From a virus, in IMG/VR virus record IMGVR_UViG_3300044646_000318, positions 1 to 20,745 of that record: a DNA stretch of 20,745 nt; one strand, 5' to 3'. Both the position numbers and the translations under genes were made by a program. Below the pieces are notes generated by a model. The model had not been told where the DNA came from and ran no database searches. It saw only the letters and a list, made by a program, of their open reading frames with translations. This document shows, one piece after another, positions 13,083 through 17,502 of this stretch (its first letter is position 1; each line of letters begins with the position of its first letter).

Positions 13083-14375
13083 TTAGGTCGTGACGATCTC
13101 GTTGCACTCGGCGAACGACTCGGGGTGCCGCACGGCGAAGTCGCAATCGTGGAAAGCCACGACGCGCACCGTACCGGCATTCGAACCGCTGTACTGATCG
13201 ACGAGGATGTCGATACCCGACCACTGGCCGATGAGCAGATCGCTCCACACACCAAACAGCATGGCCGAGAGGCTGGAACCCGAACCCTTCGTGAGGTTCG
13301 AGGGAACCTGCTGCGAAACGTAGATCGGGTAGCCGTACAGGTTCGCCATATCCGGGCCGAGGATGAAGTTGCCTTCCACGCCGCTCGACTGCCGAGAGGT
13401 CGTGGAGAGTTTCGCCTTCACCTGTCCGTTCGTGAGGAACGCCGCAGAGCCGGTCAACGCGTTGTCCGTTTCCACTTCCTTCACGAGGTTAACCACCATC
13501 GCCCAAGTCGGCGCAGCACCGTTCGTGCCGAGCGTCACCGAGCCAATGCCCGACGTGTTGAGCACGCCGGTCGGCTTGTTGCTGCCCGAGCCAGCGACCG
13601 CAGCACCGTCCATCGCCACGGCAATCGAGGTAGCCAAGTCATTGCGAACGAGGTTCTCGATGTCGAGCGACGACTGGAGCATCAATCGGCGGCTGATGTC
13701 AACGTAGGCACCGAGGGTCTTCGGCGACATCGTGACTTGATCGAACGCCGGAGCGTTGGTGCTCTCCGTCGGTGCGCTGTTCTCGGCGACCCAGTAGGCC
13801 GAAGAAGCCGAGGTCTTGCGCGGGATGGCGACGTTACCGTTGAGGCCCGTCAGGAACTGCGCGCCAAGGGTGTTGAGCACCATCTTGTTACGCAGCACAT
13901 CAATGAACGACGCAGCCAGCAGATCGGTCGCAACGAGGTTGCCCGCCTTCGCCGTGCCAGAGGCCGTCGAGGTGGTCAGATCGCGCTTCCCGTACAGCAC
14001 ATCGACCGGAATCAAGAGACCGCGTGAGGTGCGGCCTTCCTTCTTCGCGGCGGCTTCGGACACTTCGAACTCGAAAGCCGCGTCCTCTTGGGCACGACGA
14101 TCCTGCGGGTTAGACAGAGCCTTGATCGCACGGACGAACGAGAACGAGCGCACTTCCTTATCGGAGAGGCCGACCTCGTGGTCAACGTTCAGCGGCTTGG
14201 AGGCCACCTTGTCGAGCAACGCGCCACGGAACTGCTCGATCGAGGCTCCGTCACGAATCGCCGACTCGCCGAACTCGCGCTGATTGTGACGCGAGGCCAG
14301 ATCCATGATCGCCGAAACGCGGGCGCGTTCGGCCTTTGCTGCATCCTCACGGACGCTGTTGATTTCGTCAGACAT
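13083..14375 (-). CDS. candidate internally initiated major capsid protein, 430 aa
   Basis: ATG 14375-14373 (codon 370 of the fused frame) has AAGGAG six bases upstream, stronger than the site of the full-length frame. The product would begin MSDEINSVRED with the typical helical delta domain followed by the HK97 fold. About 430 residues is a normal size for an unprocessed capsid protein. Internal initiation would yield the large excess of capsid over protease that assembly needs, without separate genes. The alternative is that only the fusion is made and cut by its own protease. The sequence cannot decide between these. Confidence 0.6.
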   Translation of the reverse strand: MSDEINSVREDAAKAERARVSAIMDLASRHNQREFGESAIRDGASIEQFRGALLDKVASKPLNVDHEVGLSDKEVRSFSFVRAIKALSNPQDRRAQEDAAFEFEVSEAAAKKEGRTSRGLLIPVDVLYGKRDLTTSTASGTAKAGNLVATDLLAASFIDVLRNKMVLNTLGAQFLTGLNGNVAIPRKTSASSAYWVAENSAPTESTNAPAFDQVTMSPKTLGAYVDISRRLMLQSSLDIENLVRNDLATSIAVAMDGAAVAGSGSNKPTGVLNTSGIGSVTLGTNGAAPTWAMVVNLVKEVETDNALTGSAAFLTNGQVKAKLSTTSRQSSGVEGNFILGPDMANLYGYPIYVSQQVPSNLTKGSGSSLSAMLFGVWSDLLIGQWSGIDILVDQYSGSNAGTVRVVAFHDCDFAVRHPESFAECNEIVTT

Positions 14376-15482
14376 TTTTGTCTCCTTGACAATGATTTTA
14401 GGTTCGGCAACCGGCGCAGTGTTGATCGCACGACCAACGCCGACACTGGTATCTGCCGGGATAGATACGATACTGATTTCGAGCGGCATCCAACTGACTG
14501 CGCGGAAAACCTCCCGGTCTCCTTGCTTTCCGTCCGATACCATCTCGCTGATAACGTAACCGACAGACACGTTTGACCGTATTCCATCCTTTACGTCCTG
14601 CCAGATTTCCTCGGCTCGCGCACTTTTCCCAAAGCGCACGACAGCCCGCGCCACGCGGTCTGCTCCGAGGCTGATCTGCTCCACGACGCCGACTTGATCG
14701 GCCATCTCGTGATCCACAAGCAGCGGCGCACGGCCACTGCCAATAAACTCCATGTCGATTGAGCCGGGCGAGTGGTCGAGGATTTCCATGCCCCAGCCAC
14801 GGTCGACCGCCATCTCGCTCGAGAAGGCCAACGTCGCACGACGCTGGTCTTCCATGATGGACGCACGCTCAAAGATCGCTGAGCGGAATACACGCTCGGT
14901 CGGCCCCTTGCGCTTGGCAGGGCCAGCGTAGTCCTCTTCATACGGCTCATTGCCGTACATATCCTTGGGACGCTCGCCCTCGGCAAAGATTTCCTCGCCA
15001 TCTTCGGCGGCTTCTTCCAGCGCCTCGATAGCCTCGTCCGCTTCCTCGCTTTCGTCCATGTCGTACTCCGACTTGGCGAATGTCACGGTAACGGTTGCCT
15101 CGTCCTCGACGACAGCGACGACGTGCCTTGTTTCTACCTTGTCCATATTTCGTCCCTCATCTTCGCGATCCAGTTCCGCGCTTTTTCGATTAGCCCAACT
15201 CTGGCCGGGGTCTCCGCCCCAGAGTGCCCACGCGATACGCCCTGCGGACGGGTAGCCCTCTTCGCCCGGACGGAAGCCCTCGGCTTCTTTGTCGATTTCG
15301 TGTCTTGCAAAGTAACTCACCATCCTTCGGATCGTTTCGGGCGAAAGATTCGCTCGATTCTTAATGTCCCGAGCACGAGCAACGCCGACCTCTGTGCCGC
15401 CGCGTCCGAACTCTTCGCGCCACTCTAATCCGCGAGCGGCCTCTGCTGCCATTGCCTCTGTGGGCTTTGTGTCAACAGCCAT
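13083..15482 (-). CDS. fused prohead protease and HK97-fold major capsid protein, 799 codons
   Basis: One frame holds three parts. Residues about 30-100 form a small domain (GVARARDIKNRANLS, MVSYFARHE, GRIAWALWGGDPGQSW) that I recall at the N-terminus of other phage head proteins. Residues about 113-355 are an S78-type prohead protease with candidate catalytic residues H258 (LLVDHE), S306 (NVSVGY) and E335 (PLEISIVSIPAD). From M370 onward lies the major capsid protein: a charged helical delta/scaffold region (about 370-490), then the HK97 fold (LGAQFLTGLNGNVAIPRK, YWVAENSAP, LGAYVDISRRLM, NLYGYPIYVSQQVP). An acidic linker (about 142-185) sits inside the protease part. Two internal in-frame ATGs have ribosome sites. 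The start overlaps the fiber stop as TAATG. Confidence 0.9.
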   Translation of the reverse strand: MAVDTKPTEAMAAEAARGLEWREEFGRGGTEVGVARARDIKNRANLSPETIRRMVSYFARHEIDKEAEGFRPGEEGYPSAGRIAWALWGGDPGQSWANRKSAELDREDEGRNMDKVETRHVVAVVEDEATVTVTFAKSEYDMDESEEADEAIEALEEAAEDGEEIFAEGERPKDMYGNEPYEEDYAGPAKRKGPTERVFRSAIFERASIMEDQRRATLAFSSEMAVDRGWGMEILDHSPGSIDMEFIGSGRAPLLVDHEMADQVGVVEQISLGADRVARAVVRFGKSARAEEIWQDVKDGIRSNVSVGYVISEMVSDGKQGDREVFRAVSWMPLEISIVSIPADTSVGVGRAINTAPVAEPKIIVKETKMSDEINSVREDAAKAERARVSAIMDLASRHNQREFGESAIRDGASIEQFRGALLDKVASKPLNVDHEVGLSDKEVRSFSFVRAIKALSNPQDRRAQEDAAFEFEVSEAAAKKEGRTSRGLLIPVDVLYGKRDLTTSTASGTAKAGNLVATDLLAASFIDVLRNKMVLNTLGAQFLTGLNGNVAIPRKTSASSAYWVAENSAPTESTNAPAFDQVTMSPKTLGAYVDISRRLMLQSSLDIENLVRNDLATSIAVAMDGAAVAGSGSNKPTGVLNTSGIGSVTLGTNGAAPTWAMVVNLVKEVETDNALTGSAAFLTNGQVKAKLSTTSRQSSGVEGNFILGPDMANLYGYPIYVSQQVPSNLTKGSGSSLSAMLFGVWSDLLIGQWSGIDILVDQYSGSNAGTVRVVAFHDCDFAVRHPESFAECNEIVTT
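14382..14387 (-). promoter_or_regulatory. internal Shine-Dalgarno AAGGAG before the capsid ATG
   Basis: AAGGAG on the minus strand lies six bases before ATG 14375 inside the protease-capsid frame, at the junction between the protease end and the delta domain. It is among the best ribosome sites in the window. Confidence 0.65.
15153..15158 (-). promoter_or_regulatory. internal Shine-Dalgarno GAGGGA before the protease ATG
   Basis: GAGGGA on the minus strand lies six bases before ATG 15146 (codon 113), exactly where the protease part begins (MDKVETRHVV) after the N-terminal domain. It could start a protease-capsid product lacking that domain. Confidence 0.45.
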
Positions 15483-17161
15483 TACTCAAGCCTCAAGAAC
15501 GATTCCGCCGTCGTCGTCAATGTTAAGGCTACCACACGAACCGTGCCGTCGCTGCCTTTGACCTTGATCGTGAGCGTGGAATTGTCGGTCAACTCAAACA
15601 CCATGTCGCCGTTGCTGCTCGGCGTGGCCGATGCTGCGGGTTGAATGGTCACCGCATTGGAGTTTTGCGTCGACATTGTGCCAAGGCCACTGACTGCGGT
15701 ATTTGCAATCGAGATAGCCGTGTTCGATGCGGCAGTAAGCCGACCCTGCGCGTCTACGGTGAATGTCCCAACTTGGGACGCCGAACCGTAGGACGCTGCC
15801 GTCACTGCGGTATTGGCGAGCGAGATGGTGCGGTTCGCAGACAGATCGCCGCCGCCGCTCAATCCTGTGCCAGCCGAGATGGTCGTGGCGGAGGCCGCAG
15901 CACCTAGAGCAGTCAAAGCCGCGCCCGCTGTGGTCGATCCTGTGCCGCCGTTCGCAACGGCCAGCGTACCGGCCAGCGTAATGGTGCCGCTGCTTGTGAT
16001 CGGGCCACCAGAGGTGGTCAGCCCAGTGGTGCCGCCCGATACATCAATGCTCGTGACCGTGCCCACGCCGCCAGCCGAGATCCACTCGACATCCGTGCCG
16101 CCGATGTTGACGGCAAGCACTTTTCCGGCGTTGCTGGTATACGTCGGCAACAGATTCGTGCGTGCGCCAGAGGCCGACGATGCGCCTGTTCCGCCATCCG
16201 CCACGGCCAGATCGGTAATGCCGGTAACGCTACCGCCGGAGATGCTGACGCTGTTGGCGTTCTGGGTGGACATCGTGCCCAGCCCAGAAACCGCCGTGTT
16301 AGCAATCGAAATCGACGTATTGCTCGCAGCGGTGAGTCTGCCCTGCGCGTCTACCGTGAAGGTTGCAACTTGTGATGCAGAGCCATACGAGGCCGCTGTG
16401 ACGGCAGTATTTGAGAGGCTGATGGTTCTATTGGCCGAGAGGTCTCCGCCGCCAGAAAGCCCTGTCCCTGCGCTTACGGTGCGCCCTGTGGGTACGCCGC
16501 CCAGGTTAGAGAGCGCGGTCGATGCGTCCGAGGCTCCCGTGCCACCGTCTGCGATGGCAAGGTCGGTAATCCCAGAGACGGAACCGCCGGTAATTGCAAC
16601 CGCGCTGGCGTTCTGCGTGGACATCGTACCGAGGCCGCTCACCGCCGTGTTAGCGATAGCGATATTGGTATTGCTAGCAGATGTCAAACGGCCTTGAGCG
16701 TCTACTGTAAACGTTGCAACTTGGGACGCAGAACCATATGCGGCCGCTGTAACCGCGGTGTTTGCGAGAGTCAGTGTCCTGTTTGTCGACAGATCGCCGC
16801 CGCCCGATAGCCCTGTGCCCGCCGTGAGCGTGCGACTCGTAGGCACGCCGCCTAAATTAGATAGAGCAGTCGATGCGTCGCTTGCTCCTGTGCCGCCATC
16901 TGCGATAGCAAGATCAGTAATTCCAGATACCGAACCGCCGGTGATCGCTACGTTGTTAGCATTCTGCGTGGATATTGTGCCGAGGCCGCTGATTGCACTG
17001 TAAGCAATAGAATTGGCTGTGAGCGCAGACAATGAGGTGATGTCAGAATTTGCCCCCTTTTTTGCGCCATCGGGCCAGCCGGTGCGGACAACAACCTCGT
17101 TGTTCGATTCCTCAATGACGACCGATTGCAAAGTTTCGTCAACGATGATGCGCTCGGTCAT
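15482..17161 (-). CDS. candidate head fiber protein with 117-aa repeats, 559 aa
   Basis: The start at 17161 is supported by an ATGA overlap with the upstream gene and GAGGTGA six bases before it; an alternative start at 17191 has neither. The N-terminus (TERIIVDETLQSVVIEESNNEVVV) looks like an attachment region. Repeats of 117 residues follow at about 58-174 and 175-291, with partial copies at about 292-330 and 380-490. Each has SGLGTMSTQN, ADGGTGAS, AGTGLSGGGDLS and a YGSASQVATFTVDAQGRL block, as in trimeric phage fibers. The C-terminus (about 500-559) is a non-repeat beta region. Its location between portal-side genes and the capsid, far from the tail tip, suggests a fiber on the head. No chaperone domain is seen at its end. 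Confidence 0.7.
   Translation of the reverse strand: MTERIIVDETLQSVVIEESNNEVVVRTGWPDGAKKGANSDITSLSALTANSIAYSAISGLGTISTQNANNVAITGGSVSGITDLAIADGGTGASDASTALSNLGGVPTSRTLTAGTGLSGGGDLSTNRTLTLANTAVTAAAYGSASQVATFTVDAQGRLTSASNTNIAIANTAVSGLGTMSTQNASAVAITGGSVSGITDLAIADGGTGASDASTALSNLGGVPTGRTVSAGTGLSGGGDLSANRTISLSNTAVTAASYGSASQVATFTVDAQGRLTAASNTSISIANTAVSGLGTMSTQNANSVSISGGSVTGITDLAVADGGTGASSASGARTNLLPTYTSNAGKVLAVNIGGTDVEWISAGGVGTVTSIDVSGGTTGLTTSGGPITSSGTITLAGTLAVANGGTGSTTAGAALTALGAAASATTISAGTGLSGGGDLSANRTISLANTAVTAASYGSASQVGTFTVDAQGRLTAASNTAISIANTAVSGLGTMSTQNSNAVTIQPAASATPSSNGDMVFELTDNSTLTIKVKGSDGTVRVVALTLTTTAESFLRLE
15663..17000 (-). repeat. in-frame tandem repeats of 351 bp within the fiber gene
   Basis: The anchor TTCTGCGTGG and its near copies occur at 16962, 16611 and 16260, exactly 351 bp apart (117 codons). 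A further diverged copy lies at 15663 after a 597-bp (199-codon) step that includes a non-repeat insert. Protein copies are nearly identical while many third codon positions differ. Confidence 0.8.
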
Positions 17162-17502
17162 CGCGTCACCTCTGCGTCTACAGTGAAGCAACCCTGCACG
17201 AGCCGATACACCGTGCTGCCCGAGACTAACTCTAGGTCATAGACATAGTGACCGGCGACGACCGCTGCCGTATCCGCTGCCGTTACGGTTAGCGTGATAG
17301 TGCCAGCCGTGCCGCCAAGCGCAATGCGCGAGTTCTCTGTGGTTAGCGACAGCAGCGTGGAGGATGACTCGACCGTTTCGCGCACTTGCATACGCGCTGT
17401 GTAGCCGGTCAAGTTTACCGCGCTTGATGAATCGTCGAGCCATGTCAACTGACGGCTGAAGGTTGCGCCTTGATCGCAAACGATGTCGTATTTAGCCGCC
17501 AT
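17158..17502 (-). CDS. BppU-N-like beta-sandwich protein, probable fiber partner, 114 aa
   Basis: The opening KYDIVCDQGATFSRQLTWLDD followed by VNLTGYTARMQVRE is a pattern I recall in many phages near fiber genes. It is similar in layout to the N-terminal domain of baseplate/receptor-binding accessory proteins (BppU-N). The rest is beta-rich (GTAGTITLTVTAADTAAV, GHYVYDLELV, VYRLVQGCFTV). It overlaps the portal stop by 11 bases, has GAGGTG before its ATG, and ends in an ATGA overlap with the fiber gene. Tight coupling suggests it anchors the fiber to the capsid or assists its folding. Confidence 0.6.
   Translation of the reverse strand: MAAKYDIVCDQGATFSRQLTWLDDSSSAVNLTGYTARMQVRETVESSSTLLSLTTENSRIALGGTAGTITLTVTAADTAAVVAGHYVYDLELVSGSTVYRLVQGCFTVDAEVTR

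Follow-up and report, generated by a model that had tools for sequence, protein, structure and literature searches.

A single gene in the window, the whole stretch of 20,745 nucleotides of viral DNA analyzed here, encodes a helical N-terminal domain, an S78-type prohead protease, a delta (scaffold) domain and an HK97-fold shell protein in one frame, and within this frame, at the border of the delta domain, lies a start codon (codon 370, M370) that is preceded by a Shine-Dalgarno (SD) sequence and is conserved across relatives. We consider it likely that this frame serves as a nested translation unit, in which the capsid protein is made mostly from the internal start and the longer forms co-assemble with it as the supply of protease. 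A further ATG with an SD-like sequence, at codon 113 (M113), is a candidate for a second internal start.

Domain layout of the fusion frame

The features of the gene, with the basis of each in brackets, are:

13083..15482, minus strand: fusion frame of N-domain, protease, delta domain and capsid (799 codons, uninterrupted)
15480..15482, minus strand: annotated start ATG, codon 1 (sequence; SD pairing -5.6 kcal/mol)
15153..15482, minus strand: helical N-domain, residues 1-110 (PHROG 2859; AlphaFold)
15153..15158, minus strand: SD-like GAGGGA of the second start (E109 is GAG in 37/39 representatives)
15144..15146, minus strand: internal ATG, codon 113, at the end of the N-domain (conservation)
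14892..15146, minus strand: acidic, mostly disordered segment, residues 113-197 (AlphaFold pLDDT <50 at 109-173 and 188-197)
14448..14891, minus strand: S78 prohead protease, residues 198-345, with H258, S306 and E335 (Pfam, PHROG, alignment, AlphaFold)
14376..14447, minus strand: hypervariable disordered linker, residues 346-369 (relatives' sequences; AlphaFold)
14382..14387, minus strand: SD AAGGAG of the capsid start, codons K366 and E367 (-8.5 kcal/mol; no synonymous change in 39 representatives)
14373..14375, minus strand: internal ATG, codon 370, conserved start of delta domain plus capsid (conservation in relatives)
14028..14375, minus strand: delta (scaffold) domain, residues 370 to ~485, the end being approximate (predicted helices 375-482; R4C mature start)
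13086..14027, minus strand: HK97-fold shell protein, residues ~486-799 (Pfam PF05065; Foldseek match to 8gta)

An earlier note, made from the sequence alone, had described a stop-free frame of 799 codons at 13083-15482 with an N-terminal domain of about 100 residues, an S78 protease with the residues H258, S306 and E335, and an HK97 capsid, and all of these were borne out. The library profile matches of the protein are to S78 and HK97 families. In particular, residues 203-795 match the protease-capsid fusion family PHROG 617 (E=1.4e-156), to which the protein belongs, as both the S78 protease and the HK97 capsid lie in its single frame. The protease is assigned from Pfam PF04586 at residues 251-345 (E=6.6e-5, 23.5 bits, above the cut-off of 21) together with H258, S306 and E335, which are invariant in an alignment of 61 diverse homologues, and the capsid from PF05065 at residues 514-791 (E=2.5e-47, 162 bits) and Foldseek matches to 8gta and HK97. 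The NCBIfam model for prohead protease/MCP fusions, NF045541, scored 150.8 bits, short of its curated cut-off of 525.

In the AlphaFold model of the 799-residue protein (mean pLDDT 67, 50 sequences), residues 9-109 form a helical N-domain and most of 109-197 is disordered; the beta-rich protease (198-342) is followed by a second disordered stretch (343-373), a helical delta region (375-482) and then the capsid. The mature N-terminus of a relative, the roseophage R4C, aligns with approximately residue 513. Protease and capsid share one frame at all 334 fetched loci in which both were detected; a split between them was sought in 346 fetched loci and none was found within the family, the distant phage phiPsal1 being the sole exception. 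Frameshifts near the capsid C-terminus at L046 and L066 were taken as probable sequencing errors, and these two loci were excluded from the close-relative alignment; a stop near the protease start of L141 was also treated as a probable sequencing error.

The ATG of codon 1 overlaps the stop of the upstream frame as TAATG and has GAGG at 15491-15494 on the minus strand as its SD. Portal and capsid are separated in the window (15482-17191) by a tail-fiber-like frame (PHROG 11393) and a small gene of PHROG 1084; in CRP-811 and S-CBS1 the portal is directly upstream of the fusion gene.

Conservation of the start codon at the delta domain

ATG 14375 is codon 370 and is preceded by AAGGAG at a spacing of 6 nt, as the earlier note had it, and its placement of this ATG at the delta border also holds: M370 lies in a disordered linker (343-373), shortly ahead of residue 375, where the first delta helix begins. 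The SD pairing at M370 (-8.5 kcal/mol) is the strongest of the 22 in-frame ATGs, the next being -6.1 kcal/mol, and outdoes that of the gene's own start (-5.6 kcal/mol); among the 20 other putative gene starts listed in the window, one beats it (-9.2 kcal/mol).

Loci were testable for this start when they contained VGxGR at the protease end and enough sequence (n=286). A Met is present 5-60 residues past VGxGR in 282 of these, and the remaining four (L218, L219, L226 and L243) have GTG at the equivalent place. Inspection revealed a fifth GTG case, L246, which sits among the 282 owing to a later Met; here a GTG with a GGAG SD occupies the start position, and GTG makes up 3 of the 47 Val codons of this locus. 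The rule of taking the first Met after VGxGR mislabels L019, L107, L108, L150 and L246, because the Met that it picks lies within the SD or further downstream, and on inspection these have a normal SD-preceded start or GTG. Between R351 and G412, M370 is the sole column conserved at 90% or more in the 61 homologues, the residues on either side of it vary freely and the linker is hypervariable. The same Met is found in the isolates VP882, phiHAP-1, R4C, RcCronus, vB_EcoM-ep3, Persinger and PPpW-3 and also in S-CBS1, S-CBS3, S-LBS1, CRP-406, CRP-811, CRP-821 and others, and in these isolated phages the linker ahead of it is completely different.

Close relatives retain the start codon, and nearly all have an SD-like motif ahead of M370. 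The peptide patterns that fetched these loci overlap neither start site, leaving the sample unselected for starts; in two other queries, one pattern of six overlapped a start Met (EDQTMTDE; IEKEETAM). When 126 non-redundant representatives were compared, 48 of their post-protease Mets (38%) had an SD of 5 nt or longer at a spacing of 4-10 nt, vs 102/2541 (4%) of other internal Mets; the tests treat related representatives as independent, so that p-values are not strict. The SD classes require at least 22 changes on the tree, and the SD core before the delta-start Met occurs in all three codon registers.

SD use differs between clades. In the window and Roseobacter-type clades, 82-90% of delta starts have an SD energy of -5 or below; the figure is about 60% in the Rhodobacter-like and gammaproteobacterial clades and 9% in the cyanophage-like clade, in which 29% of downstream genes have an SD, a share that is low yet above that of the delta start. 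The delta start codon is kept in every clade, the cyanophage-like one included, and a kept codon without an SD in that clade fits SD-independent initiation; for the SD argument itself this clade offers no support. The cyanophage-like loci (S-CBS1, S-CBS3, L183-L261) have a Pro/Ala-rich linker, without SD, upstream of the conserved start. Thus, the conservation check that had been set beforehand came out in favor of the capsid start: the codon is near-universal and the SD is kept in most clades, with flanks that change.

At the level of single codons, K366 is AAG and E367 is GAG in 33/33 window-clade sequences each, and several adjoining codons vary as much as expected or more; codons with zero change also exist elsewhere in the gene (21/726). 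Synonymous shuffling of the 7 upstream codons in the window sequence was not significant, being underpowered because Lys-Glu and Glu-Gly pairs yield SD-like sequence in most codon choices, and a 7-codon sliding test of synonymous change gave no marked dip at either internal start (17th and 31st percentile). Register, substitution and codon-column tests were used in place of shuffling. Synonymous constraint at both sites is limited to the SD codons.

The N-domain border and a candidate second start

Helical and highly conserved, the N-domain was modeled with a mean pLDDT of 93.8 (AlphaFold, residues 1-111). Residues 4-110 match PHROG 2859, whose function is not known, in a profile search; neither a Pfam nor an NCBIfam model matched the domain, and a PDB fold search with it returned nothing significant. 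The domain is also found in phage proteins that carry the annotations portal, prohead protease, XkdF, ParB-like, Dps-like and TUDOR-containing, and is thus a widespread uncharacterized phage domain. Varied modules lie between the N-domain and the protease at L082, L086, L145, L148 and L237, among them a Hva1_TUDOR-like domain, an RPYPNEHAAR-type module and stretches without assignment, and the border acts as a cassette site.

ATG 15146 is codon 113 and has GAGGGA at a spacing of 6 nt, in agreement with the earlier note, which had put it exactly at the protease start. That position is wrong by ~85 residues: M113 is located just past the last N-domain helix and marks the end of this domain, and the predicted protease fold begins at 198 (AlphaFold), with homology from ~200. 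The SD pairing of M113 (-6.1 kcal/mol) equals that of M142 (-6.1) and is close to that of M11 (-5.8). As M113 is undistinguished within the window sequence, its case rests on conservation.

GAGG is present ahead of M113 in nearly all window-clade sequences. E109 is GAG in 37/39 representatives vs 53% gene-wide, and codon 110 begins with G in 38/39, encoding Gly or Glu alike. The window clade conserves the M113 start, and CRP-821 and CRP-823 have equivalents of it at the same border. The N-domain of CRP-821 is followed by additional inserted modules, past which homology resumes at EGRT-M-EIRHIV, with GAGGG before the ATG. The CRP-823 isolate has an extra T relative to CRP-821 (TTT to TTTT) upstream of the M113-equivalent ATG, which puts the N-domain out of frame and could be a sequencing error; in this phage (L087 2150-2200) the fusion is split in two frames that are annotated as two 'major capsid protein' genes. 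The CRP-811 clade has an SD-preceded Met after the N-domain and before the TUDOR-like module. Across these two clades, the window's and that of CRP-811, at least one SD-preceded Met is present between N-domain and protease in 47/47 representatives, vs 5/34 elsewhere.

A competing explanation is that the capsid start alone is used and that the GAGG ahead of M113 arises as a side effect of a conserved Glu-Gly-Arg peptide and a Glu-rich linker. We regard this as a serious contender that falls somewhat short of probable. It would account for the SD-like background in the window-clade linker, where GAGG-type sequence precedes 24% of non-Met codons, for an SD at M113 that is no stronger than that of M142 and for L069, which is without an SD at this site; it is harder to reconcile with the GAG preference at E109, the G-initial codon 110 and the resumption of CRP-821 homology at the M113-equivalent Met past the inserted modules. 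M113 passes the conservation check within its clade, and the sister clade has equivalents at the same border; the ease with which Glu-rich linkers give GAGG leaves its case weaker than that of the capsid start. Initiation at M113 probably gives a protease-capsid product that lacks the N-domain, at about an even chance or slightly better, a rating held down because the GAGG background in such linkers is high. On the strength of the conservation at M113, three nested products, as the earlier note had proposed, are plausible. The fullest version of the proposal, in which three SD starts would give three nested products with capsid in excess and protease in the minority, and in which the capsid start would be a general, undescribed feature of the family, is tentative and lies close to the balance point, on its doubtful side.

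Proposed products and known systems

A T=7 head contains 415 shell copies and needs far fewer proteases. The conserved start at the shell part suggests that shell protein free of the protease is produced as well, in excess, and that this start would set the protease-to-shell ratio. In the mechanism that we favor, ribosomes at ATG 15482 would produce the full N-domain-protease-capsid chain, the strong SD before ATG 14375 would direct synthesis of a delta plus capsid precursor of the standard HK97 type in larger amount, and further initiation at ATG 15146 may yield the protease-capsid form without the N-domain. The long chains would join the prohead as a minority via the shared capsid domain, carrying the protease inside, where it would remove the delta domains and itself and then be lost before packaging. 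Internal initiation would here do the job of retroviral Gag/Gag-Pol. We infer the use of the starts, the co-assembly and the product ratio, the last of which the earlier note had put forward as a dosage device.

An alternative in which every shell protein starts out as the full-length fusion and is then self-cleaved, with M370 a cleavage-site or structural residue, is unlikely. Prohead proteases do cleave close to domain borders, the change of Met to Val at five loci is conservative and the cyanophage-like clade retains the Met without an SD; however, residues on both flanks of the Met vary freely, its substitute is always the start codon GTG, even where GTG is rare, and SD nucleotides are retained in differing codon registers. 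Moreover, were all 415 copies full-length, the pre-shell parts would take ~60-110% of the prohead interior, vs 14-26% for the delta domain alone, given an assumed inner radius of 18-22 nm. Less probable still is that the internal starts are unused relics of once separate protease and capsid genes: such a fusion is plausible because the capsid gene of the distant phiPsal1 is separate, with a start aligning near M370, but the start codon has been kept over deep divergence amid free change and swapped for another start codon.

The nested translation unit that we propose can be set beside several known head gene arrangements. In HK97, gp4 and gp5 are two separate genes; the window has the same combination of an S78-type protease and a delta-capsid precursor, joined in one frame. 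The fusions of PHROG 617 and NF045541 likewise have protease, delta/scaffold and HK97 capsid in a single frame, and the window protein has an N-domain and an acidic linker in addition. The roseophage vB_DshS-R4C, of the same family, encodes a protease-delta-capsid fusion in which the conserved Met follows TCGGAGGACGCA; unlike the window protein, this fusion is without the N-domain. Its solved chain corresponds to residues 362-629 of the 629-residue fusion (the C-terminal 268), and the virion contains 415 mature copies (PDB 8gta, PMC10276861); a term search of the structure paper found no mention of the protease part or of cleavage.

Protease/capsid fusions have been described for Pseudomonas phage MD8 (PMC8508860), Paracoccus prophages (PMC6536676) and Microbacterium clusters EE and EL (PMC7302621), those of MD8 and Paracoccus having ClpP-like proteases, unlike the S78 protease of the window. 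No report of an internal start was found in the relevant passages of these three papers. Nested in-frame head genes are represented by lambda C/Nu3 (Shaw and Murialdo 1980, reference 43 in PMC8508860). The window gene resembles this pair in its protease-bearing long form and a shorter, here putative, in-frame form from an internal start, and a conserved internal start codon with an SD is indeed present in its protease-bearing frame. The lambda short form is a scaffold, with the capsid gene separate, whereas that of the window would be scaffold plus capsid. Thus, protease-capsid fusions were already known, and the conserved internal capsid start is apparently new, as we found no description of it for such fusions in the open-access literature, which covers few subscription journals.

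Fusions of this type face a stoichiometry problem, since a T=7 head needs 415 shell proteins but far fewer proteases, and an internal start that is conserved would resolve this while leaving the gene whole. The finding also draws attention to a widespread uncharacterized helical domain joined to head proteins. If the proposal is true, the annotation would change to one gene with two or three products, and this would bear on the interpretation of capsid N-termini and proteomics for many isolates, including R4C, VP882 and the CRP phages.
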